Assembly: GCA_038744685.1 (NCBI GenBank)
Contig: JBCDMB010000008.1
Location: forward strand, 62,001 to 126,000
Direction: 5' to 3'
Length of the DNA stretch: 64,000 nt
Origin: Verrucomicrobiota bacterium
GTDB taxonomy: Bacteria > Verrucomicrobiota > Verrucomicrobiia > Opitutales > Puniceicoccaceae
Positions 16,970 to 37,161 of this stretch are shown here, piece after piece. The stretch's first letter is position 1. The number at the start of each line of letters is the position of its first letter. The translations under genes and the position numbers were made by a program. The notes beneath the pieces were generated by a model. It saw only the letters and a program-made list of their open reading frames with translations, made no database searches and was not told the origin of the DNA.

Positions 16970-17328
16970 TGTTCTAAAGTATCTTTTAGAGGGTACTTGT
17001 TATAGATAATCAACAAAGAAGGACCTTTGTAAACGACGCAGACATAATAGTAAACTGCGCCCAGGACCTCACCTATACATGTGGATAGTATTTTCGTGCT
17101 TCACACGACACAGAATGCCAGAAAACTAACAGACATCCGCCATGCGCATTTTTAGAAAACTAAAAAGGGCTGATCGTAGCCACTCAACCGGTGAGAGTCT
17201 TTTACTGCAAACGGTTCGTGCGAACTGGTCCTGAAATAGAAAAACAGGTCTTCTCTGAAACCCTGGATAGTTCCTTCTATTTAGTTGCGCTACTACAGCC
17301 AAGATCTTTGAGAAGCTTTTTTTCTCCA
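16970..17328. other. Divergent promoter region, 359 bases
   Basis: Separates the PEP-CTERM gene (minus) and a sulfatase (plus). It holds one copy of the recurrent palindrome at 17072-17089, about 103 bases from the PEP-CTERM start codon. The plus-strand frame is open from GTG 17191, but the signal peptide favours a later start. Confidence 0.6.
17072..17089. promoter_or_regulatory. Recurrent 18-bp operator-like palindrome
   Basis: Reads CCTATACA-TG-TGGATAGT, two inverted half-sites around a two-base centre. Near-identical copies lie upstream of four other transcription units in this window. Here it sits in the divergent region of the PEP-CTERM protein and a sulfatase. The binding regulator is not identified. 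Confidence 0.5.
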
Positions 17329-18837
17329 TTGAAGACTGCTCTCCTTTTCCTTTGCGGTCTTTCTCTTACTCATGCTGTCGAGCTGCCGAATGTCGTCATC
17401 ATCTACGCGGATGACATGGGTTACGGGGACTTGGGGGCAAACAATCCCGGTTCCAAAATACCCACGCCGCACCTCGACCAACTGGCCTCGGAGGGAATGC
17501 GCTTCACCGACGGGCACAGTTCCTCAGGAATTTGTACGCCGAGCCGCTTTGCATTACTCACGGGACAGTACCATTGGCGACGATTCCACCGGATCGTGGA
17601 TTCCTTCGGTCCTCCGGTTTTCAGGTCCGGCGACTTTACCTTGGCGAAGATGTTTCAATCCATGGGCTATCGTACGGCGGCCATCGGCAAGTGGCATCTG
17701 GGTTGGAACTGGAAAGCTTCCATGGTCCCGGATTCCAAGGGTAAGCTTCCGAAAAACTTGAAAGCGATCCAGCCGGCGGACATCGATTGGACCCGGCCGA
17801 TCTCAGGAGGTCCCTTGGATCGTGGCTTCGACTATTACTTTGGCGATGGCACCATCAATTTTCCGCCCTACTGCTACATCGAAAACGATCGCGTTGTCGG
17901 TGCCCCGACTGTTCTCATGGACACCGCAACGTTCGCGCCAATCCCGGAAGGCAAATGGGAGTTCCGGGATGGTCCGATGGTCGACGGCTGGGATCCCTAC
18001 GAGGTCTTGCCGACGATTACCGACAAAGCCGTCGAGTGGATCGCCCAACAAAATGAAGACCAGCCTTTCTTTCTTTATTTTTCCCTACCCTCCCCCCACG
18101 CACCAATCATCCCAAATACGGATTTCCGGGGGAAATCGGAAGCGGGCCCCTATGGAGATTTCGTTTACGAAACCGATGCGATGATCGGACGCGTTCTCGA
18201 CTCTCTGGATGAAAACGGCTTCGCCGAAAATACCTTGGTTTTTTTCTCGTCCGATAACGGCCCCGAGCTTTACGCCTACGACCGGGCCAAGGAATGCGGG
18301 CATTGGAGCAGCGGACCCCTGCGCGGCTTGAAACGCGATCTCTGGGAAGGAGGCCACCGGGTGCCATTTCTGATTCGTTGGCCCGGACACACGGTTCCCG
18401 GAAGTGTTTCGGACGAGACTGTCAGCCAAATCGATCTCGCGGCAACATTTGCCGACATCATCGGCTACGAACTGAGCCCAAAAGAGGCGGTCGATAGCCA
18501 CAACCTGCTCCCCGTTTTGCTAGGTGAGCCCTACCCCCAACCATTGCGTGAAGCGACCGTCCAAAACACCTACCGGCACACCTACGCAATCCGCAAAGGA
18601 GACTGGCTCTATATCAACACTCACAAAGCCGCTCCCAAAGGCGGAGAGCCCGACTGGTTCTTGGATGAGCGGGGCCTACAGAAAAGGGAGAAGACCAGCA
18701 GACTTCTTTACAACTTGAAGGAAGATATCGGGCAGCAAAACAATCTCTATGAGACCTATCAGGAAAAAGCCAAGGAGATGGCCGCTTTACTCAAGGAGTA
18801 TCTCGATGGAGAATCATCCGCGCCACATGCCCAATAG
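17329..18837 (+). CDS. Secreted S1-family sulfatase
   Basis: 502 residues if translation starts at TTG 17329. That start gives a typical signal peptide ([15 protein letters not shown]) and has GAGAAG upstream. The frame contains no plausible ATG; GTG 17191 and TTG 17308 are alternatives. Sulfatase core: [15 protein letters not shown] (metal ligands), 'G-I-C-T-P-S-R-F' with the formylglycine precursor C69, 'A-I-G-K-W-H-L-G-W' and [13 protein letters not shown]. The overall form is that of arylsulfatase-A-like carbohydrate sulfatases. It stands alone on the plus strand, divergent from the PEP-CTERM gene. Confidence 0.9.
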
Positions 18838-18904: not shown

Positions 18905-20254
18905 CTATCCGACCAAGTCTTGGGTGCGAAATCCAGGTCGGGCTTCGGTCCTTAGAAGCGCATCGGCTTCAGGATTATTTGTGATCTTCATTTCTTCGGC
19001 ATCATAGTCGATATCTTGTCCGGTGCGAATTGCCAAGGTTCCCAACACAATCATCTCGGATAGCTGCCCTGCGTAGTCAAAACTGGATCCGGGGGTCGGA
19101 CCTTCTCCTTTGCAGGCACGAATCCATTCCTGAATGTGACCTCCCTTGATCCGAGGGTATTTCTTTTCCGGGCGGAGCGAAGGGTTCTTCCGGAAATCCC
19201 TCCAAAGCAACTTGGGATAAAGACGAGGACTATTCGGACGCAAGCTCGGGTGGTAAATAATGCCTTCGCTTCCGACGATCATAAGACCACCGCGTTTATC
19301 GAGCTCGTCCTCTCCAAAAAAACCGGGTTTTGCGGGCATCCTTGGACCTTCATACCAACTGACCGGAACCACTTCCCCGGTTCCCCTCTGTCTGCAATGA
19401 AACTTAACCACCGAACCAGGAGGGGTGAAAATTGGATTTACGTGCTCTACCTCCACTTCAACTTTATGAGGAATCTCCAAGTCAAGGGCCCAGAAAGGTG
19501 AGTCCAAGGTGTGGCAACCAATATCGCCAAGACCTCCCATTCCAAACTTCCACCATCCGCGCCAGTCACGCGGGGCATACATACCTTTTGAAAATTCCGG
19601 GGCATCCGTGACCGGCCCCACCCAAAGGTCCCAATCGAGACTGCCCGGAACAGGTGAGGGAGCGGCATACTCCATTTGTTCGGAAATAAATCCTACGCCA
19701 TTGACCGGGCGATTCGTCCAAGCAGCGACCTCCCGCACCTCACCAATCAATCCGGCCTCATACCACTCCCGAATGAGTCGGGTACCCTCGAAAGCATGTC
19801 CTTGATTGCCCATCTGAGTGACCACACCATTGTTCTCCGCCTCGGCCATCAACATCCTCACCTCGGCGACGCTATGGGCCATGGGCTTTTCGAGAAAGAC
19901 ATGCTTACCCATGCCCAAGGCCATGATGGCGGCCGGGAAATGAGTGTGGTCCGGTGTGCTGATGGCAACAGCGTCGATTTCTCCCCGCAGCTCACGGAGC
20001 ATGATCCGGAAATCCTGAAAAGTCTTCGCCTCTGGGAACATTTGGGAGCCTTTGGCGAGAAAACCGGAATCTACGTCACACAAGGCAACCATGTCCTCGC
20101 TTTGCATGCCTTTGATATTCCGAAACCCTTGGTTACCAACACCAATCGCGGCGATCCGTAGCTTTCTTGGACCATCAAGGGATGATGCGATTAGATTGGG
20201 TGCGACCAGCGCACTGGCCAACGAACTTTGGATAAATCTTCTTCTAGAGATCAT
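18905..20254 (-). CDS. Tat-exported Gfo/Idh/MocA oxidoreductase
   Basis: 449 residues from ATG 20254, chosen because it begins with the twin-arginine signal 'M-I-S-R-R-R-F-I-Q' (an upstream in-frame start at 20287 adds 11 residues). The Rossmann motif RIAAIGVGNQGFRNIKG binds NAD(P), and VFLEKPMAHSV carries the family's EKP motif, whose lysine is a catalytic residue. The C-terminal half is the usual alpha/beta substrate domain. Exported members of this family in PVC bacteria and Bacteroidetes oxidise sugars, often at C3, with a tightly bound cofactor. It follows the double-DUF1080 gene by 52 bases on the same strand, a pairing that suggests a 3-keto-sugar route. Confidence 0.88.
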   Translation of the reverse strand: MISRRRFIQSSLASALVAPNLIASSLDGPRKLRIAAIGVGNQGFRNIKGMQSEDMVALCDVDSGFLAKGSQMFPEAKTFQDFRIMLRELRGEIDAVAISTPDHTHFPAAIMALGMGKHVFLEKPMAHSVAEVRMLMAEAENNGVVTQMGNQGHAFEGTRLIREWYEAGLIGEVREVAAWTNRPVNGVGFISEQMEYAAPSPVPGSLDWDLWVGPVTDAPEFSKGMYAPRDWRGWWKFGMGGLGDIGCHTLDSPFWALDLEIPHKVEVEVEHVNPIFTPPGSVVKFHCRQRGTGEVVPVSWYEGPRMPAKPGFFGEDELDKRGGLMIVGSEGIIYHPSLRPNSPRLYPKLLWRDFRKNPSLRPEKKYPRIKGGHIQEWIRACKGEGPTPGSSFDYAGQLSEMIVLGTLAIRTGQDIDYDAEEMKITNNPEADALLRTEARPGFRTQDLVG

Positions 20255-20306
20255 AGGAGTTAGTTTTGGGATTGAACATAGCTTCACTAAAGGCAGAGGA
20301 AAATGG

Positions 20307-21788
20307 TCACTCGCCGAGATCTTTGAGACGGATGACCCGATACTCTAGATCTGCCCATTCGGCCTGAACGGAGATTTGGCCAGACCCGAGAGGCTTCCAT
20401 TGCTCGTCCGCATCAAGGAATTCCATATCGAACACCTGATTGACCAAGGTTCCGTTCAGGTAAAATTCCGCTTTCTCGCTTCCGTGCACGACCACTTCGG
20501 CAAGATTCCATTCGCCAATTGGGTTTTCGGCATAGATCGGCGTAACGCCTCTGAGGTTCTTCCCGGGACTAAACCTTCCTCGTTCCTCCAGCTCGGCTCC
20601 TTCCTGAAAGACCCCATCATGGATCGGGGTCTTCGTTCGGGTATTTCGACCCAAAACAAACAGATCGCCCGTCACATATTTACCATTCTCTTCCGGGATT
20701 CCGTCCCCCAGTTGCATCTCAACCGAGGAAGGCCAGACTAGACTTTGCTCCTCGTAGATATGGAAAAGGATGCCCGCATCGCGGTCGGCTTTGCTGCGGG
20801 GGATAAACTTCTTACCCAGCCAACGATACTCTACTTGCAAGTGAAATTCTGAGAACAATCCATCGTGCAATAAGTTCGCGCTAAACTGCCGCGAATACTC
20901 GGGCGCATCGGCATAGACACGAATCGCTCCGTCAATCACACGAAAAATATCATCCAGAGGAAGAGACGACCCGTCGCCTTTTTTCCCGCGGTAGGCAGTC
21001 CACCCCTCCAAATTCTCCCCGTTAAACAAGTCAATCCACTCAGATCCAACCGAGCTCACCTCCTGTAAATCGAGGCTCTCGACCTTCAAGCTGCGAATTG
21101 CAATCGGTCCATGGTCACCCTGAATCACAATCGGTCCCGTCGCGCTCTCACCCTCTATCTGGTGGGACCGAGTCGGACCCGTCGCTTCGACTTCCTCCTG
21201 AACCAGCTGATCATTGAGGTGGACGGATACAAAGCGGGCGTTTTCGGTCTTGCTTCCATCCGAATCAAAGCGCGGTGCGCGAAAAACAATCTCCAGTGTC
21301 TGCCATTCACCTGCTGGTTTCGCGGCATTCACGAGTGGAGCTACACCATCGTAACCCCTGTCCCTGCCCTGTTTCCGCCCGTCCCATCTTTGGTAGAGTC
21401 CACCCAGATCACTGTGTTGCGGATTCCCAACACCATAGCTGTCAAATACTTGAATTTCATAACGGCCCATCAGGTAGACTCCGGAGTTTGAGCCTTCGGG
21501 AATCATGAAGTCCAAGTGAACCGAAACATCGCCGTACTCTTCCTTCGTTCGGAGGTGGGAGTGTTTTTTCTTCTTTGTCGTTGCATTGATCAAAATCCCT
21601 CCGGGCCCGTCATGGGGTTCGGCCGAAAGCTCCGTTTCACCGGGAACCGCGCTGGTAGTGGAAGCCGTGAACCATCCTTTGGCCGGTGCAAAGTTCGAAA
21701 GGACATCGCCCTCAATCAAGTCATTTGCGGGAAGTCCTTTGGAAAACAAGACTAGGACGCCCACCAATAGAAACGATTGCTTTCTCAT
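20307..21788 (-). CDS. Secreted protein with two DUF1080 (3-keto-glycoside lyase/hydrolase-like) domains
   Basis: 493 residues. A signal peptide ends near GLPAND (residue ~22). Two DUF1080 (LamG-like sandwich) domains are arranged in tandem. The first spans about 35-240, with 'G-S-N-S-G-V-Y-L-M-G-R-Y-E-I-Q' and GGLYQRWDGRKQGRDRGYDG. The second spans about 250-490, starting WIDLFNGENLEGWTAYRG, with 'D-A-G-I-L-F-H' and 'S-S-V-E-M-Q-L-G-D-G'. Members of this family act on 3-keto-glycosides formed by Gfo/Idh-type dehydrogenases. The neighbouring downstream gene is exactly such a dehydrogenase. Having two domains may mean two substrates or one binding and one catalytic unit. Confidence 0.85.
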   Translation of the reverse strand: MRKQSFLLVGVLVLFSKGLPANDLIEGDVLSNFAPAKGWFTASTTSAVPGETELSAEPHDGPGGILINATTKKKKHSHLRTKEEYGDVSVHLDFMIPEGSNSGVYLMGRYEIQVFDSYGVGNPQHSDLGGLYQRWDGRKQGRDRGYDGVAPLVNAAKPAGEWQTLEIVFRAPRFDSDGSKTENARFVSVHLNDQLVQEEVEATGPTRSHQIEGESATGPIVIQGDHGPIAIRSLKVESLDLQEVSSVGSEWIDLFNGENLEGWTAYRGKKGDGSSLPLDDIFRVIDGAIRVYADAPEYSRQFSANLLHDGLFSEFHLQVEYRWLGKKFIPRSKADRDAGILFHIYEEQSLVWPSSVEMQLGDGIPEENGKYVTGDLFVLGRNTRTKTPIHDGVFQEGAELEERGRFSPGKNLRGVTPIYAENPIGEWNLAEVVVHGSEKAEFYLNGTLVNQVFDMEFLDADEQWKPLGSGQISVQAEWADLEYRVIRLKDLGE

Positions 21789-22153: not shown

Positions 22154-25100
22154 TTAAGACCGGTCCGTACCGTAGTAGAATGGTTGGTCCAAACGGATGT
22201 CCAGAAGAAGAAACATCCCTAAAGGCACCGTAACGGTTGACGTGTTTTCCTTTATCTCGAACTCCCTACCGGTGAGCACGTTAGTCATTGAAAGAGGCTT
22301 CACCGTGTTGAAGTGAACCGTAACAGTCCGGTCATCCGGATTGAGGTAACCGCTATCGATCAGCGTAAGGCGAAAACGATCAACCGCTGACTGGGCGCAT
22401 ACCCACCCTACATCATCCCCCGATAGGGAAACTGGTAAAAGATTCTTACCCTCCTCAACCGCTGGAAGAACCGTACCGTAGAAGAAATCACCGTTTGCTG
22501 GATGGGTCTCTGATCCATCACTTTCGATATAGTTCCGACCGTCCGTAATAAACTCGGTTAAAATATCCCGATAAAGCGGATGGAGATTATTCCAGATACG
22601 TAAGCGGTTGTCTGCGGGAGAGGCAAAGACTCCATTCTCAACGGGGGTGGTTAGGACCATTCCATGAGGATAGGGTGGGATAAAATTCTGGCGTCGATCC
22701 AAAACACCCGCTGCAAAACTTGAAAAATCCCACTCCGTATTCCTAGCTCCAATCCATGATCCTTCCAGTCTTCCAACAACCATCGGGTTTTCCGCCTGTT
22801 CAGCCGCATCATAGTAAGTCGACCACTTAGAGATAACATTACTCTCAATGTAACGCTCATCCGGTTCGCTTTTGATACCAAAGTGAACTGGAGAGAAGCT
22901 CACAATCTCTTCTCGACGAGGAAGATACAGGGCTCCCGAAGCAATCAACTCCCAGATCAAGCTCTGGTAATCCATGTCGGAATAGGTACTGTGAGAATAA
23001 CGTGCTCCGTAAGCCAACCGGTAGATCATGTGACGAAGGAAGTGATTGGGGACGATTTGAGCCGCGGACTCCCGAGTCCGATCAAAACTAGTATTATCGC
23101 GTGTGGTCCGCATGCCCCAAAAATTAAAGCAGCCACTAGCCCACAAACCAAGGCGGTGTGAAAGACTCAACTCACCCGTTTTGGAGGTGCTTTCTTCCAT
23201 ACAAGAGGAAAAGACGTTCTTCAAATCTCCGGCGATAAAGTCACTCCATACCTCCAAATGAACCGTGCTACCCCAGAAGAGATGCTTGTTGTTGAAAGCC
23301 ATAATTCCTCTTCGCGTGGAAAGATAGTCGGCTATATCCAGGAACAAGCGCCCAATGGGGTATTTCATATCGTCGCTAGTCGACTGAACCTCAGCCCATG
23401 ACAGAACGGTGGTGCGGCCACGGTCCTTTTCAAAGCTCGCGTCAATCGCGGCCTTCAAACTCTCAGGGCTGTAATAATAAGGGTCGTTGCCATGACCAGC
23501 ACGGAAGCTCAATCCGAAGGGTGAGCTGTCGATCTTCGGCTGCCAGTGCTCGGCAAGTAGTTCCTCCCGCGTGCGATTGTACTTTATACCATTGTCATAT
23601 CGGTGGAGGTAGGGTTCTCGAACAGGCTCGACAATCGGTTCGACTTTCGTAATCGCGACAGAATCCTTCCAGTCTTGTTTCTCAACATTTGTAGTGTGGG
23701 CAAATGTCATAAAAAAGGGATTGACCGTTCCATACTTCTCCCGGAGGGCCACCGAGGTTGGGTGATTCACTCCTCCTGACACTTCAATAATGGTCTGAGG
23801 AACACGCTCCCAACTGGGTCGAACAAACTCGTTCACCTGCTTGCGGATGTCCGCATAGTTCGCCTTCATCTTTCTCATCTTTCCCGGCGGATCCAAGTCG
23901 CGGAGATTCTGCATCCAATACGGTGACATTGTATCAACGACGTGGATTGCACTGCCTCCGCTTTGAGCGCTGGCGAAGAGAATTCGACCCTTATCCCGGT
24001 CATTCCACATACCGTTAGGCGAGTGAGGCATCACAACGCTTCCCAACTCGTTTGATAAATCCGCGGAGCGCACGATCACCTTGTTCCCACAGAGAATAAA
24101 CATCCTATGGTCGCCATCACCGGGAATATCTGTCATCGTGGAGTAGCGGTACGTCTTAAATGGCCGTATAAAACGCTCTTCGTGTGCAGTCGATACCCCA
24201 GAGGAAAGATCGATCGACTCAACCTTAATTGAAAAGGAGTTGCCACCCATGTAGAGATGGTAGTTTCCATCACCATCCGGATCGGAAAATTCCAGGGCCC
24301 CAATCGAATCCTGAATTTCGGATTCGAGACTAGGTATCGGTGCCATCCCGAATTCCCCCAAAGGTTCAAAAACATAAAAGCGTCCACGAAACTGTTGCTG
24401 GATGAAACCGAGCATCCAGAGTTGATCTGTACCATCTCCTTGGGGAACGGGGCGAAGAAAATTCGGGGTGTGAGCTTTTCCTACGTTCCGGCCCATGTAT
24501 TCCGAAGCTGATCCCCAAGGTTCCAAGTCGGAGTAGAAGGCAGAATCGACAGTTGCAAGAAGGTTACCGTTAACGTCGAGCCAGTACATATTTCTGTCGA
24601 ATCCCCCGCACGCAATGTATTTGGTTCCCTCGCCACGGACTGTGCATACCGCATTCATGGGCACTTCGTTGGGTTCAACCGGATTCGACTCGTCTGGAGA
24701 ATAAAATTCCCACATCTGATCGCCCGTCGCTGCTTCAAGGCACCGCACACTACCATCCGCAACCGCCACCAGAATCTCCTCGTCGCCGTCCCCGTTCAAA
24801 TCATCACACCAGACGTCGCGCACCATTAAACCGGAAAGAGGGTTCTCCCAAAGGAGATTTCCGTCGTAATCAAATGCAACAACCGTGCCCTCATAGCTTG
24901 CTCCGATAATGATGCTTTCTCCGTTTAGAATCGCATTGCGAACCGTGAGTATCGTGTAACCGGTGTCAAAACTCTGAACGCCTCCAGATTCGTTTGTCAC
25001 ATCATCCGCTGAGGTAACCGCAAAGTAAGTGACGGATAGACCAGTATCCCGTTCGAGGTCGCTTTTATTTTTTGATTCAAAGTAATATCCTACCCCTGCG

Positions 25101-25873
25101 ACCTCGGATAAAGAGATTTCCGTCGGGAGGACAGAAAACGAAACTTCGCCATTCCGAAATGGCGTGAATCTGTACCAGTTCAGGAAAACCGCCTTATCGG
25201 TAACGAGACTACCAGTCTCCTCGATGGGAGAACTCGCAAACCATTCCCCACTCTCCATTTCTACTACCCAACGGAAATGGATTTCTGCAGTCCAATGGCT
25301 ATCGTCCTTCTTGATGGCAAAACTCTCGAGGTTTCCGATCGGATTGAGAAAATCACTCCAAACGACCATAGCCGAGAAGGACTCATTTGGGCTAGTTTCT
25401 CTGTGCAAACGAATTTGGTCACCATTTCCGCTATCGACAACCGTGACTGTCTCGTTCTCGTGCGAAGTTGCCCCGTAAAACGCTGGGGAGAATCCTTCAG
25501 GATACATGTAGTATAGGTATCCCTGTGGCGGGTTTGCGATGCGGGTTGAGTCGTAGGTTGTCTCAAGAGTATTCAAACCAGCCTCACTTGAATAAACGAT
25601 ATCGGTCGCACCATCCGGATCGCCCCATCGAACCACAAACACCGCATTCTCTTCCTCGGAAAAAGCTTCATCACCTTCAAACCTCGTGCTATCCCCTAAC
25701 TGGGCACCAGTCTTGGTCGACAGAGAAGGCGAGAGCCCTGAACTCGACACCTCAATTCCAAGTAGTTCATGAGTCCGAAGTGCGTTTCCCCCGTCGTTTG
25801 ACTCAGCGGAAAAGGCTCGTTGCACCGAGAAGCCGGATAGCAATCCTGCTAGGACTAGATAGACGCCAGACAT
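22154..25873 (-). CDS. Giant secreted beta-propeller enzyme, GH150 (lambda-carrageenase)-like, copy 2
   Basis: 1239 residues with a signal peptide (about 1-23). Residues ~80-290 are a beta-rich domain (VVRWGDPDGATDIVY). Residues ~300-670 look like a PQQ/VCBS-type beta-propeller, with GTVVAFDYDGNLLWENPL and DDLNGDGDEEILVAVADG. The C-terminal ~570 residues are a large conserved domain (FRAGHGNDPYYY, LWASGCFNFWGMRTTRDN, PPYPHGMVLTTPVENG). A propeller joined to a large C-terminal domain is the layout described for lambda-carrageenase (GH150), and the GH110-like gene upstream supports that reading. The assignment is by recall of architecture and context, not alignment. It is the second of two tandem paralogues, 57 bases after the first, and lacks the first copy's extra N- and C-terminal modules. 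Confidence 0.65.
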   Translation of the reverse strand: MSGVYLVLAGLLSGFSVQRAFSAESNDGGNALRTHELLGIEVSSSGLSPSLSTKTGAQLGDSTRFEGDEAFSEEENAVFVVRWGDPDGATDIVYSSEAGLNTLETTYDSTRIANPPQGYLYYMYPEGFSPAFYGATSHENETVTVVDSGNGDQIRLHRETSPNESFSAMVVWSDFLNPIGNLESFAIKKDDSHWTAEIHFRWVVEMESGEWFASSPIEETGSLVTDKAVFLNWYRFTPFRNGEVSFSVLPTEISLSEVAGVGYYFESKNKSDLERDTGLSVTYFAVTSADDVTNESGGVQSFDTGYTILTVRNAILNGESIIIGASYEGTVVAFDYDGNLLWENPLSGLMVRDVWCDDLNGDGDEEILVAVADGSVRCLEAATGDQMWEFYSPDESNPVEPNEVPMNAVCTVRGEGTKYIACGGFDRNMYWLDVNGNLLATVDSAFYSDLEPWGSASEYMGRNVGKAHTPNFLRPVPQGDGTDQLWMLGFIQQQFRGRFYVFEPLGEFGMAPIPSLESEIQDSIGALEFSDPDGDGNYHLYMGGNSFSIKVESIDLSSGVSTAHEERFIRPFKTYRYSTMTDIPGDGDHRMFILCGNKVIVRSADLSNELGSVVMPHSPNGMWNDRDKGRILFASAQSGGSAIHVVDTMSPYWMQNLRDLDPPGKMRKMKANYADIRKQVNEFVRPSWERVPQTIIEVSGGVNHPTSVALREKYGTVNPFFMTFAHTTNVEKQDWKDSVAITKVEPIVEPVREPYLHRYDNGIKYNRTREELLAEHWQPKIDSSPFGLSFRAGHGNDPYYYSPESLKAAIDASFEKDRGRTTVLSWAEVQSTSDDMKYPIGRLFLDIADYLSTRRGIMAFNNKHLFWGSTVHLEVWSDFIAGDLKNVFSSCMEESTSKTGELSLSHRLGLWASGCFNFWGMRTTRDNTSFDRTRESAAQIVPNHFLRHMIYRLAYGARYSHSTYSDMDYQSLIWELIASGALYLPRREEIVSFSPVHFGIKSEPDERYIESNVISKWSTYYDAAEQAENPMVVGRLEGSWIGARNTEWDFSSFAAGVLDRRQNFIPPYPHGMVLTTPVENGVFASPADNRLRIWNNLHPLYRDILTEFITDGRNYIESDGSETHPANGDFFYGTVLPAVEEGKNLLPVSLSGDDVGWVCAQSAVDRFRLTLIDSGYLNPDDRTVTVHFNTVKPLSMTNVLTGREFEIKENTSTVTVPLGMFLLLDIRLDQPFYYGTDRS

Positions 25874-25930
25874 GAACTACCGACACGCTGACTCGGATCT
25901 ACACTCTCCAAATGAAGATAAATCAGCGAC

Positions 25931-28900
25931 TCAATCATTGAGGATCTCGATTCTGATCCGGAAAAACGCTTGATCCATATCAGTGACGTCCAAACCGTAA
26001 ATCTCAGTCCGCGAACCGCTACCCATCGACTCTGCGCTAAAGTCGGACCAGTCTGTGCTCCAAATTTCGTTCCGCAAGTCGTCTGTCCACTCTGCAATGT
26101 AATTGATTCCAAGTCTTTCTGAATCCAACCGAACAAAATCCAAGGCAAACCGTTTTTGAAGAGAGTTGTAGGAGAAGTTTGGTGAATGGCCACGGTCCCG
26201 AGCGTTCCAAGGATGACCCTGGAAAGCGAACTCGGCAAGATCGACTACACCATCTTTGTCAGCATCCGCGGTCGAAAGCCCACTCAAACCATAGTCACTT
26301 GCGTACCGGCCCCACTCGTTGTCTGGAAAGAACGGCTCACTCAACTCGATATCAAGAAAAGTGAACATACCCAGTGGAACCAATACTGCAGAAGAGTCTC
26401 CGTTGATGGCGATGCTTTCATTACTCAACAAATCGGTTACAGCGACCGGCTTCACCGTATTGAAATGGATAGTCACCAAACGATCACCAGGATTCAAGTA
26501 GCCACTATCTACCAGAGTTAACCGTAAGCGGTTGGGCGCAGACTGAGCACAGACCCAGCCGACCTCGTCACCCGAAAGATAAATCGGAAGGAGACTCTTA
26601 GCATTTTCAACAGCTGGCCTTACTGTGCTGTAAAAGTAAGCACTGTTAGCAGCGTAGGTGGCGGATCCATCGGCTTCAATGTAGTTGCGGCCGTCGGTGA
26701 TGATCTCCGTCATTCGGTTCCGATAAAGCGGATGAAGGTTATATCGCAGCCTCTCACGACTGTCTGCCCGGGATGCGTAGAGACCATTTTCAACCGGAGT
26801 AGTGAGAACCATTCCATGCGGATAAGGAGGAATAAAATTCTGCCTTCGATCCAAGACCCCAGCAGCAAACGTTGAAAAATCCCATTCAGTGTTTCTTGCC
26901 CCAACCCAGCAGCCTTCCAAGCGCCCGATCACCATCGGGTTTGCCGACTGTTCGGCTGCATCGTAATACGTGCTCCATTTAGAAATTACGTTACCCTTCA
27001 CATACCGCTCATCCGGCTCGCTCTTCACTCCGAAATGAACCGGAGAGAAACTAACAATTTCTTCTCGGCGAGGAAGGTAAAGGGCTCCCGAAGCGACCAA
27101 CTCCCACACTAGACTCTGGTAATCCATATCAGAGTAACTGCTGTGGGAGTAGCGTGCTCCGTAAGCTAAACGATAGACCATGTGCCTCAGAAAGTGATTG
27201 GGTACAATCTGAGCAGCGATCTCCCGGGTCCTGTCAAAACTGGTGTTGTCCCGGGTAGTCCGCATTCCCCAGATATCGAAACAACCGCTCGCCCACAGAC
27301 CAAGGCGGTGTGAAAGACTCAACTCACCAGTCTTGGAGGTGCTTTCTTCCATACAAGTCGAAAAGACCTCCTTGAACTCTCCGGAAATAAAATCGCTCCA
27401 GACTTCCCTGTGAACAGTGCTTCCCCAAAACAAGTGTTTGTTATTGAAAGCCATCATCCCGTTCCTCGTCGACAAATGGTTAGCTATTTCGCGAAACAAA
27501 CGATCAATCGGATATTTCATCTCACTACCCGTAGCCTGCACCTCCGCCCAAGAAAGAACGGTTTTTTGGTTTGGACCTTTAGCGTAGCTCGCATCGATAG
27601 CGGCTTTCAAAGTGTCCGGATTGTAATAGTAGGGGTCGTTGCCGTGTCCTGCCCGAAAACTTAGCCCAAACAAGGATTCGTCGATCTTTGGTTGCCAATG
27701 CTGGTCAAGAAGCTGCTGACGAGTGCGTCCATAAGTGATCCCATTGTCGAATCGTTGGAGATACGGTTCGTTGGCTGGTGTAACAACCGGCTCTACTGTT
27801 GTGGTTTCGACTGAATTTTTCCACCCTTGCTGTTCTACATTCGTGGTGTGGGCGAATGTCATGAAAAGCGGATTTACGGTCCCATACTTCTCACGAAGGG
27901 CAACTGCCGTTTCATGGGTTGCTCCACCTGAAACTTCGATCATCTGATCAGGAAGTCGCTCCCAAGCTGGCCTAACAAAGCCCCTCACCTTCTCTCTAAT
28001 ATCGGTGTAGTTCGCTTTCATTGATCTCAATTTTCCGGGAGGATCGAGATCCCTGAGAGCCTGCTTCCAGTAAGGCATGGAAAGATCCACAATATGGATC
28101 GAGCTACCTCCGCTTTGGGCACTGGCAAAAAGAATGCGATTCTTATCCCGATCGTGCCACATACTGTGAGGAGCGTGCGGCATTAAAACACTCCCTAAGT
28201 CGTCCGAGAGATCCGCTGATCGAAGAACAACTTTATTTCCGCAGAGGATGAACATTTTGTATCCGCTTCCGTTGGGGACATCCGTCAGAGTCGAGAATCG
28301 ATAGGTTTTAAAGGGTCTATTGAAGTCTTCTTCATGAAATGTCGAAACGCCTGTTGAAAGATCGATCGATTCTACTCGAATACTGAATGCGTTGCCACCC
28401 GCATAAAGGCTGTAAGCGCCATCACCATCAGGATCAGAAATCTCAAGAGCCCCGATCGAGTCGTTTATCTTCGAATCCAGGCCAGGGGAAGGACGAGTTC
28501 CGGAGCTTCCCAACGGATCAAAAAGGTAATAACGTCCCCGAAACTGCTGTTGAATATACCCTAGCATCAATAGCTTGTCTGTTCCGTCACTCTGTGGAAC
28601 CGGGCGAAGGAAGTTAGGAGTGTGAGCTTCACCGATTTCACGGCCAAGATATTCGGAAGCAACTCCCCAAGGCTCCAAGTCAGAGTACCTGGAGGACGGG
28701 ACCGTCGAAAGAAGGTTTCCCTCTGCATCGAGCCAATAAAGGTTTTTATCAAAGCCTCCACAGGCAATGTAGAGACCTGTTGAACCGCGGATGGTGCAGA
28801 CAGCCTTCATCGGCACCCCATTGGGCTGGCCCGGATTTGCTTCATCTGGAGAGAAAAAGGACCAGTTTTCATTCCCGGTGACTCCATCGAGACAGCGGAT

Positions 28901-30430
28901 ACTGCCATCGGCCAAAGCTACAAGGATCTCATCGTTCCCATCACTGTTCAGATCATCGCACCAGATATCCCGTGCCATCAAGCCAACCAAAGGATTCTCC
29001 CACAGGAAATTTCCTGCGTAGTCATACGCTACCACAGTTCCTTCGTAGCTTGAACCAACGATGATACTCTCGCCGTCCAACACTGCGTTGCGAACGATCA
29101 AAACCGTGTACCCCGTATCAACGCTCTTTACCCCACTGTCTACAGTGGTCGGTTCCTCGGTAGCACTTACGGCAAAATAGCTTACCGCAAGACCGGTATC
29201 CCTGGAAAAGTCATCGCCGTTCTCCGCTTCAAAGTAGAATCCAAAGACGACCGCCTCCGACAAATCCACTTCAACCGGCATTGTGCCGAAGGTCACCTCT
29301 CCATCTGCAAAAGGCTCAAACGGATACCAGTTAAGGACAGTCACTTTATCGGTGACCAAACTCCCGGTCTCGGCAATCGGAAAACTTGCATACCATTCAC
29401 CGGAATTCACCTGAATGACCCAACGAAAATAGATCTCAGCGGTCCAGTGGCTATCATCCTTCTTAATCGAAAAAGTATCGATGTTGTTTGCTGGGTTGAG
29501 AAAGTCCTTCCATACGATCATTGCAGCATAGGTCTGATTCGGCTCGATCTCCCGTTCCATTTGAATCCGGTCTCCCGAATTATCGTTCGCGATCAGTGCT
29601 TCTTCGTTCTCAACAGAAGAAGCACCAAAAAACCTCGGTGAAAAACCAGACGGGTCCGGAAAGTAATTGCTGCCTTGCACCGGGCTTGCCGCCTGATCCG
29701 GGTCAAATGTTGCGTCCAATTTATTAGAGTTAGAAATACTCTGCGAAACGATGTCTCGCTTGCCGCCGGGAAGTCCCCATCGGACGACGTAAAAGGAATC
29801 GGTAACTCCCGAGATCCCTAGGTTGTCGACCATCAAAGTTCGGTTTCCCTGAGCCCCATTAAACTCGAGAGTGAAGGTCCGGCTAACTCCCGGCTCCAAT
29901 ATCGTGTCCGGATCAATTTCCGATATGTCGATATCAAATGCGTTCCATGAACCTGTGCCGCCGAGTGAAAAAGTCTTCGTGCTTCCATCCAGGCTGATAT
30001 CCACATCCGTTGAGGACTTCCAGTGGTCCCTGAAGGACTGGAAGTGCAACTGACTCATCTCAATAGGATCACCAGAATGATTCTCTACGGTCACAACCAG
30101 AGTAAAGTTACCGTAGTTTTGATTGATGGGTTCACCTGAAAGAGCAGAATTGATCCCAAAGCCCTGACTCCCCCAGAGTCCATCCGTTGACCCGGTAAAG
30201 TTCCGCAATCGATTTCCGCTCAACTGAAGATCAACAAGACCAGCAACAGCGGCATCCTGCCTAACGACGCCAGAAGAATCATCAAATCCCCCTAGAAGGG
30301 TCGATCCACCCCAAGAGATGCTGTTCATAGAAAACAGCACCGACGAAAGGATCAGAAATTGGAGAATTCCGAATGACAGTCTTCCGACAGTTTCCACTCT
30401 ATCCCCCAACATATCCCGACCCTGTTTCAA
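25931..30430 (-). CDS. Giant secreted beta-propeller enzyme, GH150 (lambda-carrageenase)-like, copy 1
   Basis: 1499 residues. The start overlaps the stop of the GH110-like gene (ATGA). A hydrophobic stretch at about 20-37 acts as signal peptide. An extra N-terminal beta-sandwich (about 42-215) is absent from the paralogue. The shared body follows: beta domain (VVRWGLPGGKRDIV), propeller (about 440-800, DDLNSDGNDEILVALADG) and C-terminal catalytic candidate (about 805-1365), with long stretches identical to copy 2 such as PPYPHGMVLTTPVENG. A final ~125 residues beginning 'D-A-D-K-D-G-V-V-D-L-A-E-F-A-F-Q' form the calcium-binding-like C-terminal module common on secreted verrucomicrobial proteins. 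Probable endo-acting enzyme on a sulfated galactan; the family call is an inference. Confidence 0.65.
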   Translation of the reverse strand: MKQGRDMLGDRVETVGRLSFGILQFLILSSVLFSMNSISWGGSTLLGGFDDSSGVVRQDAAVAGLVDLQLSGNRLRNFTGSTDGLWGSQGFGINSALSGEPINQNYGNFTLVVTVENHSGDPIEMSQLHFQSFRDHWKSSTDVDISLDGSTKTFSLGGTGSWNAFDIDISEIDPDTILEPGVSRTFTLEFNGAQGNRTLMVDNLGISGVTDSFYVVRWGLPGGKRDIVSQSISNSNKLDATFDPDQAASPVQGSNYFPDPSGFSPRFFGASSVENEEALIANDNSGDRIQMEREIEPNQTYAAMIVWKDFLNPANNIDTFSIKKDDSHWTAEIYFRWVIQVNSGEWYASFPIAETGSLVTDKVTVLNWYPFEPFADGEVTFGTMPVEVDLSEAVVFGFYFEAENGDDFSRDTGLAVSYFAVSATEEPTTVDSGVKSVDTGYTVLIVRNAVLDGESIIVGSSYEGTVVAYDYAGNFLWENPLVGLMARDIWCDDLNSDGNDEILVALADGSIRCLDGVTGNENWSFFSPDEANPGQPNGVPMKAVCTIRGSTGLYIACGGFDKNLYWLDAEGNLLSTVPSSRYSDLEPWGVASEYLGREIGEAHTPNFLRPVPQSDGTDKLLMLGYIQQQFRGRYYLFDPLGSSGTRPSPGLDSKINDSIGALEISDPDGDGAYSLYAGGNAFSIRVESIDLSTGVSTFHEEDFNRPFKTYRFSTLTDVPNGSGYKMFILCGNKVVLRSADLSDDLGSVLMPHAPHSMWHDRDKNRILFASAQSGGSSIHIVDLSMPYWKQALRDLDPPGKLRSMKANYTDIREKVRGFVRPAWERLPDQMIEVSGGATHETAVALREKYGTVNPLFMTFAHTTNVEQQGWKNSVETTTVEPVVTPANEPYLQRFDNGITYGRTRQQLLDQHWQPKIDESLFGLSFRAGHGNDPYYYNPDTLKAAIDASYAKGPNQKTVLSWAEVQATGSEMKYPIDRLFREIANHLSTRNGMMAFNNKHLFWGSTVHREVWSDFISGEFKEVFSTCMEESTSKTGELSLSHRLGLWASGCFDIWGMRTTRDNTSFDRTREIAAQIVPNHFLRHMVYRLAYGARYSHSSYSDMDYQSLVWELVASGALYLPRREEIVSFSPVHFGVKSEPDERYVKGNVISKWSTYYDAAEQSANPMVIGRLEGCWVGARNTEWDFSTFAAGVLDRRQNFIPPYPHGMVLTTPVENGLYASRADSRERLRYNLHPLYRNRMTEIITDGRNYIEADGSATYAANSAYFYSTVRPAVENAKSLLPIYLSGDEVGWVCAQSAPNRLRLTLVDSGYLNPGDRLVTIHFNTVKPVAVTDLLSNESIAINGDSSAVLVPLGMFTFLDIELSEPFFPDNEWGRYASDYGLSGLSTADADKDGVVDLAEFAFQGHPWNARDRGHSPNFSYNSLQKRFALDFVRLDSERLGINYIAEWTDDLRNEIWSTDWSDFSAESMGSGSRTEIYGLDVTDMDQAFFRIRIEILND

Positions 30431-32280
30431 TCGTTTTTAACGTTCGAAACGCCCGTCTCTTGAAGATCAGTGAATCCTGAGTTGTCACTCACTTTGATTT
30501 GATCGCAATCCGCTGAAGAAACGATTCTGAGCGGTCGGTTGAAACCGGAGGCGTCGTTTCCGCGAATCGTCACGTTTTCGGAATAGCGCAAGTCCACCGA
30601 GGGATAGTCGTCCATCTCCGGGTAGTCGTCGCTGAAAGAAACGGTATTGTCGGAGACCTCCAAGCCATCCACCGAAAGAGCGAAAACGAAGTGGCCGTTG
30701 AAGCTGATGATCTCGTTGTCCACGAATCGGATGTTCCGGTGATAGTGGCCTTCCCCTAGATGCTGGGTCTCGTTCAGCAGGGGCGCAATGTAGAGCGGGT
30801 ATCGCTTCGTTCCCTCGAAACCGACATTGATGAAGGTGTTGCCCCGGATCGTTAGGTCCTGAACCGCTCCCGATTCGTACCATTTGTTGTTGTCCCCTTC
30901 CACGAGGATACCGTGCATCTGCGGAGAGATGATATTGTTCTCGATAAGAATCTTCCCCTTGCTCGTCAAAAGAAGGCCTCGGGCCCGGTTCTCTCGGATG
31001 ATGTTGTTCCGAAAAATCACGTCGGGATTCCAGGTCAAATTTTCTACCGAGAGTGGACCGTCGGGAAGCGAGTCCGGAACATCTTCCAAAGTGAGTAGGA
31101 AGCGATGTTCGTTGAGGATCTCAAAACCCGTTACCGTTGACTCATGAAACGGCAAGATGGTCTTGCGCGACAGCAATGCGATCTGATCTCCCGGTTCCGC
31201 AAAAACGAGTCCCCATTGCTGAAAATGACTGATCTCACAGAGAAACTGGTTATCGCCTACCCGCTCTACCACCTTCACATACGCTCCGTGGACATTGATG
31301 GCATCGTCCAACATGTGCTCGAAAAGAGAGTTCTCGACTAGGATGGTTCCCTTGCAGCCGATGAAGTGGGTCGCGTCGGCCCGTGTAGCGACAAGGCGGC
31401 CCTCACCGGACGTCAAGGCATAGTCCCTTACCGTCACGTTTTCGGTGCGTTCGGCAATAATTCCCATGCCACCGGCCGCGAGGATCGTCACTCCTTCGAC
31501 CGTAACGTCGCTGGATCCGCTAAGGTGAATGGCTGGAGCGAGGCGGCTCAGGGGGTTGACACCGTAACTGATCAGAACGCTTCCCACCGGAGGTAAATCC
31601 TTGCGCAACTTGGCGAAGACTCTTACCCGGTTTCCTTCCAGACGCTCTACGCGGTGAGGCTGGTTGAAGTTGATGATGTAGTCCCTCGTGTTGAAGATAG
31701 GGGATCGCGTTTCGGGGTCGAAGAGGATGTTGAAACCCATAGGCACTTCCCAGCCATATCCCCGGTCGGAGTAGAGACTGCCATGCCGAATAACATGGGG
31801 ATACCTATCCGGGTCGATTTCCACGACAAAGCTTCCTTCGTCTTCGTCTATCTCGACGATAGGTAATTCGTCGTGGAACGTCCTCACAAAATCCACCGTG
31901 AAGTTCTTCAGGGCAACTCCGCTGCTCTCCTCGACCACAAACGGGCTGACGACTCCGTGAAAGAGAAAGAGCGATCCGTCACCGTCTATTGTGATGTCTT
32001 CGAACCCGAAAAGCGGAAAAATCATCCGCTTGATCCCGTTGTCGTGGTTGGAAACCGCCCGGTGCTCCTCCCTCGCATTCTCGGGGTGGAACTCGTAAAT
32101 CCCCTTCGGAAAGAAAAGTGTGACTCCCGATTGGCCCCCAATTCCTTCGATCAATCGATTCAGGGCAAAGGTTGAGTCAAGACCAGGCAAAACTCCGTGC
32201 TCCGAGACGTCGATAACGGTCGCTTGATGAACCGTCGGGACCAAACTCAGGAAAAACAGAAAGCAGGTATGGATTTTCAT
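30427..32280 (-). CDS. Secreted right-handed beta-helix enzyme, GH110 (alpha-1,3-galactosidase)-like
   Basis: 617 residues. A signal peptide ends near VHQA (residue ~20). The body is a right-handed parallel beta-helix: VIDVSEHGVLPGLDSTFALN at the cap, then repeated 'N-x-x-I-x-x-N' rungs such as VIFRNNIIRENRARGLLLTS. 'F-E-H-M-L-D-D-A-I-N-V-H-G' carries a paired aspartate, D325/D326, at the position where GH110 enzymes have their catalytic acids. GH110 removes terminal alpha-1,3-galactose, and one characterised marine member has been linked to lambda-carrageenan. It is the first gene of an operon with the two GH150-like genes, so it probably trims alpha-galactosyl ends of their oligosaccharides after desulfation. 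Confidence 0.75.
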   Translation of the reverse strand: MKIHTCFLFFLSLVPTVHQATVIDVSEHGVLPGLDSTFALNRLIEGIGGQSGVTLFFPKGIYEFHPENAREEHRAVSNHDNGIKRMIFPLFGFEDITIDGDGSLFLFHGVVSPFVVEESSGVALKNFTVDFVRTFHDELPIVEIDEDEGSFVVEIDPDRYPHVIRHGSLYSDRGYGWEVPMGFNILFDPETRSPIFNTRDYIINFNQPHRVERLEGNRVRVFAKLRKDLPPVGSVLISYGVNPLSRLAPAIHLSGSSDVTVEGVTILAAGGMGIIAERTENVTVRDYALTSGEGRLVATRADATHFIGCKGTILVENSLFEHMLDDAINVHGAYVKVVERVGDNQFLCEISHFQQWGLVFAEPGDQIALLSRKTILPFHESTVTGFEILNEHRFLLTLEDVPDSLPDGPLSVENLTWNPDVIFRNNIIRENRARGLLLTSKGKILIENNIISPQMHGILVEGDNNKWYESGAVQDLTIRGNTFINVGFEGTKRYPLYIAPLLNETQHLGEGHYHRNIRFVDNEIISFNGHFVFALSVDGLEVSDNTVSFSDDYPEMDDYPSVDLRYSENVTIRGNDASGFNRPLRIVSSADCDQIKVSDNSGFTDLQETGVSNVKND

Positions 32281-32422: not shown

Positions 32423-32496
32423 AAGACCGGATAACCATTGACAATTTAGCTCAGCAGCCGGAACACCTTCACCTCCCAACGATCCCAACTTTGCCG

Positions 32497-33423
32497 ATGA
32501 AGATTCTGCCTTTCCCCTCGCTATTAGTCTTTGCATTCAGCGTTGGACTCTCTTTTCAAAAACCGGTCTTTGCCGAAGTTCACATTGCCTTCAGCCGCGT
32601 CGGCGAAATGACGACCCAGTCCTATCCAATTGCCGAAGAATCGAGCGAAAATCTTATTATCATTGGTGACCAAGCGGATGCCTTTCGCATCAGGAAAATC
32701 GATGGGGGTGGAAGGGTTATTGACTTCATGCCATCGCAAGGAAGAGGAATCTATGTAGCCCAAGTAGTCACCATGGGCGACGACGAGCCTTTGTATTCGC
32801 TGCACGGACTCGCCACGGACAAGCTGGAAGGAAAGAATGAACCTCCACTGAATTCGATTCTTACCGTTTTCGGCATTTCGCTCGATCCCGGAGGCACCCA
32901 ACTGATGCTCAACACCAAATCGGAGACGATCGGCGACTCCATCCCGGCGAGCGAGTTTCGCGTTGCCGAAGGCGCGGACGAAATCTCCGTGACTTTACTG
33001 GCTAGGTATTCTCCCAAAGGCGAAGCGGAGATCGGGTTCGCGGTGGACGGAGGCGAGAGTCTCCAAACCTTCGGGCACATGGCCAACTCCTCCCGCCTGG
33101 TCCCCGACGCCCATCAAAGGATTTACCCTCCGGCCAAAAACGAAGAAGCTTCTTTTCTCGGTGCCGCTAATTACCGGATACCCGCTTCAGAATGCCCTGA
33201 TCGTTTCGGCTTCTACTTCACGGGAAAGCACTTCGCCGCCCTCACCTATCCCGGCAAAGCGAAGGGTGCCAAGATCAAACACACGGCACGCGTCTACCCC
33301 GTCGGCAAGATCGCTGGAAGAGAGTTGAAAAACGCCTATCTCATCTGCTTCGAGGAAGCCAAAAACGGCGACTACCAGGATGCCGTTCTCCTTGTGGAGG
33401 GCATCGCGCCCGCAGGGGAATGA
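32497..33423 (+). CDS. Secreted protein of unknown function
   Basis: 308 residues from ATG 32497 (an in-frame TTG lies six bases earlier). A signal peptide ends near PVFA (residue ~26). The mature protein is beta-rich without a recognised catalytic motif. Its last third, from PDRFGFYFTGKHFAALTYPG to AYLICFEEAKNGDYQDAVLL, resembles the short C-terminal domain with a conserved 'E-E-A-x-N-G-D-Y-Q-D' found on many secreted planctomycete and verrucomicrobial proteins (DUF4114-like). It may bind carbohydrate or calcium. It is divergent from the GH110/GH150 operon and shares its upstream operator-like palindrome, which suggests it works on the same substrate. Confidence 0.65.
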   Translation: MKILPFPSLLVFAFSVGLSFQKPVFAEVHIAFSRVGEMTTQSYPIAEESSENLIIIGDQADAFRIRKIDGGGRVIDFMPSQGRGIYVAQVVTMGDDEPLYSLHGLATDKLEGKNEPPLNSILTVFGISLDPGGTQLMLNTKSETIGDSIPASEFRVAEGADEISVTLLARYSPKGEAEIGFAVDGGESLQTFGHMANSSRLVPDAHQRIYPPAKNEEASFLGAANYRIPASECPDRFGFYFTGKHFAALTYPGKAKGAKIKHTARVYPVGKIAGRELKNAYLICFEEAKNGDYQDAVLLVEGIAPAGE

Positions 33424-33594: not shown

Positions 33595-33660
33595 TAACGA
33601 GTCCGGGTTGCTCTTGATATCATGGGTTTTGGTTCCGTTCCCCGGTCTCTCAACCCCAGC

Positions 33661-35712
33661 ATGCAACCGCACTTTCATATCCTCAGGTATTTGATTCTTC
33701 TCTTTGCCCTCCAAGGAGCAAACGCGTCAACCGCCCAAACGGACAAAGAACAGGAACTGCAAACGCTCCGAGAGAGGTTTGCTCGGCTCTACAACTCCTA
33801 TTCCGACGACCTTTCCACTCGAGAATACTTGAATACTTTACGAGATGACGGAACCTGGGCGGGTATTGATTACGAAAGCGGGCGGCGGGCGAAATGGCCC
33901 GCTCTGGAGCACCTGACTCGCCTCCAGACGATGGCTGCGACCTATGCGAATAAGGACTCATCTTTCTTCAAGGATCCGGATCTACTGGAGGGGATCGAAT
34001 CGGGTTACCAGCACTGGTTTGACGGAAGATACAAGAACTCCAATTGGGCCTCGTTCCGGGCGCACGCACCCGAATATATCAGCATCGGTCTCTTCCTTCT
34101 CGGAGAAGACTTATCGCCTTCCCTCCTCAAGCAGGCCACCTGGAGTTTAGACCGTCTTAGAGACCCGAACATCATGACCGGTTCAAATCGCGTCTGGACT
34201 GGGAGCAGCCAGTTCCGGACCGCCATCATTAGGGGAGACGAGACCAAACAACGGGAGGCCATAGAATTGATTCTCGGAGTCATTGCCAAGACCGAGGGCT
34301 ACATCGAGGGTTTGCAGCCGGATTGGTCTTTCCAACAGCACGGGCCCATGCTGCAATTCGGAGTCTACGGCAAGACCTTCGCGAAGTGGACCTCGATGCT
34401 CGCGTATCTCTCGGAAAACCTGAGCTTCGAAATGCCCGCGGACAAACTGGAGCTTTTGCGGGGATATCTGCTAAACGGAGCCGGATGGACCCTTTGGAAT
34501 GGCCGGATCGACTTCAACGTGATGGGCCGGATCTTCAATCCGGGCTTTCCTGCACTCCGATTCGAGGAATACAGGAACGCGATGGAGCGACTCTACGGCA
34601 TCGACGCCGAAAACCGGGAAAACTACGAGAAAGCCCTGGCTTGGCCCAACCAGGTGACCGGCCACCGCTCCTTCTGGAATTCGGACTATGCCGTTCACCG
34701 TCGCCCGGAGTGGTTCGCCTCGGTACGCATGACCTCCAACCGAACCGCCGCCGCAGAGTACGTGAACAGCCAAAACGCCCTTGGTCTGCACCAGGCGGAC
34801 GGTGTCCTGCTCGTCTACATCGAAGGCGACGAATACTTGGACATTCAACCGATCTGGGACTGGCACCGCTTGCCGGGAACGACCACCGACCAAGGCATCG
34901 AAGACTTGACTCCAAAGGGCTATAACCAGCATGCGGTGGATCTCGGCCATGAATTCGTGGGAACCATCAACAACGGCAAAGAAGGCCTTGCGACGATGAC
35001 CTACGAATGGGAAGGACTCCTCGCGCGGAAATCCTGGTTCTTTCTCGAAAACTCGATCCTATGCCTCGGCTCCGGGATCACCGGCCCCTCTCTCGACAAC
35101 GTTTATACCACCGTCCAACAATCCTGGCTCAAGGGTGATGTCGAAAGCGAAAATGGAATCGTGAAGACTGGCACGGTCCTGGAGATTCCCGCCGATTCGT
35201 GGATTCATCACGACGACATCGGTTACTATTTCCACGACGAAGCCAAGCTTGAGAGCGGGTCGAAATCGGGAGACTGGCTCGACCTCTACCCGACGTTCTC
35301 GAGCGAGCCTCGAACGGGCGACGTGTTTTCCCTCTGGTTCGACCACGGTAAAAATCCGGAGGAAGAATCCTATGCCTACGCGATCTACTCCAAGACCACT
35401 GCCGCCAATCTGGAGACGCTCGTCGCCGACGCACCCTATGTTATCCTTGCGAATACACCGGATCTGCAAGCGATCGAGACCGCGGACGCCGTAATGGCCG
35501 TTTTCTATTCGCCCCGCCAACTCAAGACCGAATCGGGATCCACCCTCTCCAGCGACCAACCCTGCATGATGATCCTCCGGGAAGATCAGCTGATCGTGGC
35601 CGACCCCACCCAGACCCTCGAAGAGTTGGATGTCACCGTCGACTCGGTCGAACATGCAGTCACCCTTCCACGGGGAGGATACGCAGGCCAACAAGTCGAA
35701 ATCACTCTCTAA
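33661..35712 (+). CDS. Secreted polysaccharide lyase, PL8 family
   Basis: 683 residues from ATG 33661, chosen because it starts a signal peptide (I-L-R-Y-L-I-L-L-F-A-L-Q-G-A-N-A); ATG 33622 adds 13 residues. The (alpha/alpha)-toroid half carries the PL8 catalytic set: H227 in 'D-W-S-F-Q-Q-H-G-P', Y236 nine residues later, as in chondroitin AC lyase, and an arginine pair near R282/R290 in 'G-R-I-D-F-N-V-M-G-R'. A beta-sandwich half follows. PL8 enzymes beta-eliminate uronic-acid-containing polymers (hyaluronan, chondroitin, xanthan, alginate), giving unsaturated uronides. It heads an operon with two sulfatases, a GH2 and a FucP-like symporter, so the substrate is probably a sulfated uronate-containing glycan, which carrageenan is not. 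Confidence 0.82.
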   Translation: MQPHFHILRYLILLFALQGANASTAQTDKEQELQTLRERFARLYNSYSDDLSTREYLNTLRDDGTWAGIDYESGRRAKWPALEHLTRLQTMAATYANKDSSFFKDPDLLEGIESGYQHWFDGRYKNSNWASFRAHAPEYISIGLFLLGEDLSPSLLKQATWSLDRLRDPNIMTGSNRVWTGSSQFRTAIIRGDETKQREAIELILGVIAKTEGYIEGLQPDWSFQQHGPMLQFGVYGKTFAKWTSMLAYLSENLSFEMPADKLELLRGYLLNGAGWTLWNGRIDFNVMGRIFNPGFPALRFEEYRNAMERLYGIDAENRENYEKALAWPNQVTGHRSFWNSDYAVHRRPEWFASVRMTSNRTAAAEYVNSQNALGLHQADGVLLVYIEGDEYLDIQPIWDWHRLPGTTTDQGIEDLTPKGYNQHAVDLGHEFVGTINNGKEGLATMTYEWEGLLARKSWFFLENSILCLGSGITGPSLDNVYTTVQQSWLKGDVESENGIVKTGTVLEIPADSWIHHDDIGYYFHDEAKLESGSKSGDWLDLYPTFSSEPRTGDVFSLWFDHGKNPEEESYAYAIYSKTTAANLETLVADAPYVILANTPDLQAIETADAVMAVFYSPRQLKTESGSTLSSDQPCMMILREDQLIVADPTQTLEELDVTVDSVEHAVTLPRGGYAGQQVEITL

Positions 35713-35716
35713 TCCG

Positions 35717-37147: not shown

Positions 37148-37161
37148 TCGACCGGGAAAAC

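Follow-up and report, generated by a model that had tools for sequence, protein, structure and literature searches.

A predicted lambda-carrageenan degradation locus with a divergent GH150 pair and a candidate binding module in a Verrucomicrobiota genome

A 64,000-nucleotide stretch of a Verrucomicrobiota genome (the window; positions 62001-126000 of contig C8, GenBank JBCDMB010000008.1; genome 3.64-Mb, 97.8% complete) carries an operon of three minus-strand open reading frames that encode a predicted GH110 galactosidase and two giant GH150 proteins. Together with its surroundings, we judge this operon with good confidence to be a lambda-carrageenan degradation locus. Few natural polymers are as heavily sulfated as lambda-carrageenan, a red-seaweed polysaccharide whose enzymology is solved in one Pseudoalteromonas only (P. 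distincta, JBC 2025; PMC12549532); the locus would carry that cascade over to Verrucomicrobiota. All cascade classes are found in it, namely GH150, GH110, S1_8 (2S), S1_15 (6S) and GH2, and because the sulfatases have S1_8A and S1_15A among their nearest solved relatives and the GH2 is a relative, every enzyme class of the P. distincta cascade is represented. While the families and this kind of locus are already known, the divergence of the GH150 pair, the intermediate gate of the GH110 and a candidate binding module appear to be new. An original prediction, a model's note on the DNA letters of the window, had placed the operon at the same coordinates in a bacterium of the Planctomycetota-Verrucomicrobiota-Chlamydiota (PVC) group; the genome shares a phylum, in the GTDB sense, with Pontiella and is counted as PVC on that basis. 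The genes of the predicted cascade are as follows (window positions).

30427-32280, minus strand: GH110, predicted exo-alpha-1,3-galactosidase (617 aa; signal peptide by eye; assigned by Pfam, PDB and residue mapping)
25931-30430, minus strand: GH150a, predicted lambda-carrageenase-type endo-hydrolase (1499 aa; propeller, middle and C domains at 26345-29065)
22154-25873, minus strand: GH150b, predicted lambda-carrageenase-type endo-hydrolase (1239 aa; catalytic core at 22196-24913)
-4080 to -1003 (C8:57920-60997), outside the window by about 1 kb on its left: GH150c, CglA-type
17191-18837, plus strand: S1_15-type sulfatase, predicted galactose-6-O-sulfatase (formylglycine motif CTPSR)
35630-37147, plus strand: S1_8-like sulfatase, SGSH-type (formylglycine motif CAASR; real start probably downstream of the listed start)
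36871-38688, plus strand: S1_8 sulfatase, predicted galactose-2-O-sulfatase (formylglycine motif CSPNR; real start probably downstream of the listed start)
38701-41151, plus strand: predicted GH2 beta-galactosidase, a relative of the GH2 of the lambda-carrageenan polysaccharide utilization locus (lambda-CarPUL)
41197-42681, plus strand: major facilitator superfamily (MFS) transporter, candidate for sugar uptake (Pfam MFS_1, 8.5e-19; putative role)

The GH110 protein matches Pfam GLAA-B barrels I/II at 1.8e-19 and 9.6e-12, as expected of a parallel beta-helix, and its best PDB matches are to P. distincta GH110A (9beh/9bev, 5e-89), with 8pvs and 7jw4 also found. Residues were mapped onto those named in two published studies (PMC7939477, PMC12549532), in which the catalytic aspartates of PdGH110B are D321, D344 and D345. 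The aspartate triad is kept in the window enzyme as D302, D325 and D326, as are the -1 subsite (N78, R246, N329, E461, E469 and R434) and R432 at +1. The enzyme had been described as GH110-like with a paired-aspartate motif, which these matches bear out, the pair being D325-D326. The first GH110 enzymes described were active on blood group B and on linear alpha-Gal epitopes (PMC7939477), and the protein might instead serve such host-type glycans, with its position next to GH150 incidental. We consider this extremely improbable, because the gene lies in a tight operon with GH150, the nearest solved relative is the lambda-carrageenan GH110A, the 74 sulfatase-family matches genome-wide point to sulfated polysaccharides, and six further genomes of the phylum have GH110 directly beside GH150 (G173, G087, G228, G716, G699 and G703; G228 holds the Pontiellaceae B12227 contig and G716 is Pontiella sulfatireligans). 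The 3.6-Mb genome's only GH110 sits in this operon.

Both giant proteins, which had been likened to lambda-carrageenase in layout, match all three CGLA domains of Pfam: for GH150a and GH150b, respectively, CGLA_M at 2e-130 and 6e-130, the CGLA beta-propeller at 9e-85 and 2e-86, and CGLA_C at 6e-27 and 1e-26. In GH150a, GH150b and GH150c the propeller, middle and C-terminal domains all score over the curated cut-offs. By sequence, then, GH150a and GH150b are GH150 members, and the Pfam search leaves all three operon proteins in the families originally named, with neither giant placed outside GH150. The two share 69% identity, and each is about 38% identical to the characterised CglA, while GH150c, which lies 23 kb past the downstream end of the operon, is 45% identical to CglA and has a higher CglA-type score than either; the three GH150s of the genome all fall within about 34 kb on one contig. 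Across 56 conserved columns defined from 27 other GH150 family members, GH150a and GH150b keep 54 residues, including every conserved Asp and Glu, and the exceptions (CglA numbering) are H867, replaced by Arg, and R924, replaced by Thr or Leu. The pair could be a recent duplicate that is decaying or unexpressed, leaving only GH150c to matter, as side-by-side copies 69% identical and a third GH150 in the region might suggest; because each frame stays open (1239 and 1499 codons) and each protein retains the family-conserved residues, this is very improbable.

Activities known for the family support lambda-carrageenan as the substrate: both characterised P. distincta GH150s cut lambda-, not kappa- or iota-carrageenan, and GH150B is only 24-26% identical to CglA yet lambda-specific (PMC12549532), so that at about 38% identity to CglA GH150a and GH150b stay within the sequence range in which family members have been functionally tested. 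A sequence search of the PDB found no solved structure for GH150. An AlphaFold2 model of the GH150b core reached a predicted local distance difference test score (pLDDT) of 58, and its top PDB fold matches were to propellers only, which did not identify the catalytic residues of the middle domain.

The GH110 stop codon TGA overlaps a possible TTG start of GH150a by four bases (TTGA) and lies 14 nt before an in-frame ATG at 30412; the 1499 aa of GH150a are counted from the TTG, although the ATG is the likelier start. With an intergenic distance of 57 nt between GH150a and GH150b, these short gaps make a single GH110-GH150a-GH150b transcript likely, and translational coupling from GH110 to GH150a is plausible. 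Promoter and terminator scans gave signals no better than chance.

Because the genome has 74 sulfatase-family matches, the mere presence of a sulfatase means little, and the argument is borne by subfamily matches and conservation elsewhere. Subfamilies of S1 were assigned from the nearest solved relatives in the PDB. For the protein at 17191-18837 the best match is S1_15A (9bas, 2e-75), with S1_15B third (9bau, 7e-72); that at 35630-37147 matches human SGSH at 1.6e-90 and S1_8A at 2.4e-42; and that at 36871-38688 matches S1_8A (9bb9, 6.6e-81), followed by S1_8B and S1_8C. The formylglycine motif is intact in all three locus sulfatases. At 38701-41151, the GH2 shares 40.6% identity with the PUL8 GH2 of P. 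carrageenovora, and the cascade GH2 (9bey, 5e-189) is its second PDB match after 5t98. Homologues of these genes accompany GH150 elsewhere: the SGSH-type sulfatase has one that is 74% identical near the G173 GH150 locus, the S1_8 sulfatase has homologues of 61-64% in the G173 and G703 GH110/GH150 loci, and the GH2 has one of 71% in the G703 locus; the loci of both G173 and G703 hold homologues of the window S1_8 sulfatase and GH2. The claim that the three operon genes make an unusually complete pathway holds in part: by themselves they are incomplete, and completeness comes with the adjoining S1_8, S1_15 and GH2 genes.

From families, catalytic residues, gene order and conservation, all read from sequence, we infer a substrate, an order of steps, a cellular location and a binding role for an unnamed domain. 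GH150a, GH150b and GH150c would cut beta-1,4 links, extracellularly or in the periplasm, to give even-numbered lambda-neocarrageenan oligosaccharides. The S1_8 sulfatase would strip the 2-sulfate from the non-reducing alpha-galactose, whose 6-sulfate would probably be removed by the S1_15 enzyme, and GH110 would next release the alpha-1,3-galactose with inversion. Further 2-O-desulfation and the GH2 beta-galactosidase would take off the next residue, after which the cycle would restart, and galactose could be taken up via the MFS transporter or one of the sodium:solute symporter family (SSF). GH150a and GH150b would probably be tethered to the polymer by the unnamed domain of about 200 aa, which is listed here with the other modules of the pair and with the genes that bear on the choice of substrate.

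29207-29803, minus strand: unnamed domain of about 200 aa in GH150a (residues ~205-430)
25058-25651, minus strand: unnamed domain of about 200 aa in GH150b (residues ~74-290)
29786-30310, minus strand: extra N-terminal module of GH150a (~175 aa; 34-43% identical to modules in P. sulfatireligans L008 proteins)
25934-26326, minus strand: C-terminal module of GH150a (~130 aa; common to many large secreted Pontiellaceae proteins near GH150 genes)
20307-21788, minus strand: 3-keto-disaccharide hydrolase-type protein (PF06439/DUF1080; two domain matches, Pfam 6.6e-58)
18905-20287, minus strand: Gfo/Idh/MocA oxidoreductase, nearest model a BT_2158-type glycoside 3-dehydrogenase (gap of 19 nt to the preceding DUF1080 gene)
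33622-35712, plus strand: chondroitinase-AC-like PL8 lyase (active-site Asn, His, Tyr, Arg and Glu kept)

Several observations weigh against lambda-carrageenan as the substrate of the whole locus. The GH150a/b subclade is long-branched and, among full-length sequences, shared only with Pontiella sulfatireligans: in the tree the pair and the P. sulfatireligans sequence form a 100/100 clade on a branch of 1.19 inside the CglA-type group, which makes a related galactan of theta, xi, under-sulfated or hybrid type a possible substrate. There is a single GH110, and its gate for 6-sulfate is unlike both characterised types: GH110A lets 6-sulfate in via R460/T498, and GH110B excludes it with E480 held by D518 (PMC12549532), whereas the window enzyme has E461 with A499 (relatives have Glu with Ser or Ala), a gate that appears B-like minus the aspartate latch. 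Lambda-carrageenan contains no uronic acid, and neither the window PL8 nor the one coupled to the orthologue in P. sulfatireligans fits a uronate-free polymer. Lastly, the known lambda-carrageenan cascade has no step for the 3-keto pair. Its DUF1080 gene lies downstream of GH150b on the same strand after a gap of about 365 nt, and the oxidoreductase scores 353 bits (2e-105) against NCBIfam BT_2158_fam, below the cut-off of 750, with the PF06439 partner present; the pair at 18905-21788 is possibly an oxidative branch of galactan breakdown.

Alternatively, GH150a and GH150b might act with PL8 and GH88 on a different or hybrid sulfated galactan, such as a less sulfated or glucuronate-bearing one of red-algal or seagrass origin, leaving GH150c as the sole true lambda-carrageenase. 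The separate subclade favours this, as do the intact window PL8, which is divergent from GH110 and 1.3 kb upstream of it, and the P. sulfatireligans locus, in which the a/b-type GH150 has a four-base overlap with a PL8 gene (L008:16193-18979), with a BNR protein and then a GH88 60% identical to the window GH88 coming next. However, the GH110, S1_8, S1_15 and GH2 of the locus are all of lambda type, the window PL8 is not an orthologue of the Pontiella PL8, and PL8, GH88 and a 445-aa propeller-like protein co-occur at loci without GH150 (L115, L118), so these genes may belong to an interleaved, unrelated system. On balance we regard the different-substrate explanation as unlikely. The tree did not support PL8 as an orthologous partner of the a/b subclade; given the non-orthologous lyases and the PL8 loci without GH150, PL8 is kept as a lead outside the proposed mechanism. 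Under the preferred reading of a lambda-carrageenan locus, the divergent GH150 pair would offer a means of testing how the family selects its substrate, and the GH110 a 6-sulfate gate that fits neither GH110A nor GH110B.

The unnamed domain contains invariant tryptophans. No match was found for any of its 15 members in Pfam at E < 0.03, none in NCBIfam and no credible relative in the PDB, where the top hit (0.0011) was a partial match to a designed protein; AlphaFold2 models from three sequences were poor (pLDDT 42, all-beta). Several GH150s carry it N-terminally and one carries it C-terminally; it also follows a catalytic domain of GH42-like type, and two or three copies are present in stand-alone proteins of 800-830 aa. 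Such multi-copy proteins, which are candidate surface glycan-binding proteins, were observed beside GH150 genes at L112:7980-10463, L123:1-2046, L045:396-2804 and L043:502-2946. In a sample of 388 genomes of the phylum, GH150 was found in 11 and CglA-type GH150 in six, and domain matches of at least 150 bits occurred in exactly those six and in 0 of the 382 others, a distribution to be read with the domain profile built from GH150-locus copies and four of the six positive genomes belonging to one family. Across 16 genomes, 24 of 25 matches of at least 170 bits lay inside or within 16 kb of a GH150 gene, the remaining one sitting on a short contig, and 2 of 20 weaker matches lay within 20 kb of GH150. 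A single-sequence search of 43 genomes, which is free of profile bias, put 13 of 17 placeable domain-only matches near GH150 by our own tally. Copies far from GH150 in P. sulfatireligans indicate that the superfamily is broader, and none were found in plasmids (including those of Pseudoalteromonas and Flammeovirga carriers) or viral contigs. The domain may be a new carbohydrate-binding module. That it founds a new family of modules for lambda-carrageenan or a close galactan, used modularly in the phylum at GH150 ends, in GH42-like fusions and in tandem secreted proteins, is a proposition we hold to be evenly balanced. As a candidate lambda-carrageenan-binding module it would be useful as a probe and in enzyme engineering.

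GH150c is followed by the 445-aa propeller-like protein, which ends at window position 353 and is without a match in Pfam or a credible one in the PDB, and then by a GH2 with two F5/8C domain matches (377-3235). Homologues of the 445-aa protein were observed at GH150 and PL8 loci (L118:9991-11427, L122:5548-7209, L114:11751-12620 and L009:14449-15696), and all forms tested were without a match in Pfam, NCBIfam and the PDB; the family is possibly an undescribed exo-enzyme. A 310-aa secreted-looking protein at 32491-33423 (plus strand), divergent from GH110, had no match in Pfam or NCBIfam. Between the S1_15 gene and a GH2 gene lies a 263-aa protein (16178-16969, minus strand) with a PEP-CTERM-like tail, VPEPGSAGLVVGLSSFAGLILLRRRRRS, and the DUF5703/GH95-like protein at 60926-63364 (minus strand) has a 46% homologue in a PL8 locus of Pontiella agarivorans (L118). 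Two GH16 genes were found in the genome, with modest scores.

The locus shares GH150, GH110, a lambda-type GH2, S1_8 and S1_15 with lambda-CarPUL of P. distincta U2A and PUL8 of P. carrageenovora 9T (PMC12549532, PMC6262041), and the catalytic residues of GH110 are identical. In contrast to lambda-CarPUL, it has three GH150s, two of them from a distinct subclade and equipped with extra domains; a single GH110 where lambda-CarPUL has two; and, in the window, at least two sulfatases of S1_8 type and one of S1_15 type rather than three and two. No TonB receptor was seen in the window, and the 3-keto pair and PL8 are additions here. Such systems have been seen before: a polysaccharide utilization locus with GH110 and GH150 in a PVC bacterium, Rhodopirellula sp. 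SWK7, was reported in 2018 (PMC6262041) and lambda-carrageenases have been noted in the Planctomycetes R. rubra and R. sallentina (PMC4807772). The SWK7 locus, compared by description only, has GH150 and GH110 together as here but belongs to Planctomycetota. Two genomes of the window's own genus are without GH150, which marks the locus as accessory. P. sulfatireligans has at least seven CglA-type GH150 places as well as weaker ones, and in the part of its species description available to us only kappa- and iota-carrageenan are mentioned. Among the genomes compared with the window it alone has an a/b-type GH150, located away from GH110, whereas the GH110-linked GH150s of the Pontiellaceae and G173 loci fall outside the a/b subclade. 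Those loci (Pontiellaceae G228, G716, G087, G699 and G703, together with G173) nonetheless have GH110 followed by GH150, often at least two GH150s and the unnamed domain nearby, and in G173 the gene order is the same as in the window.

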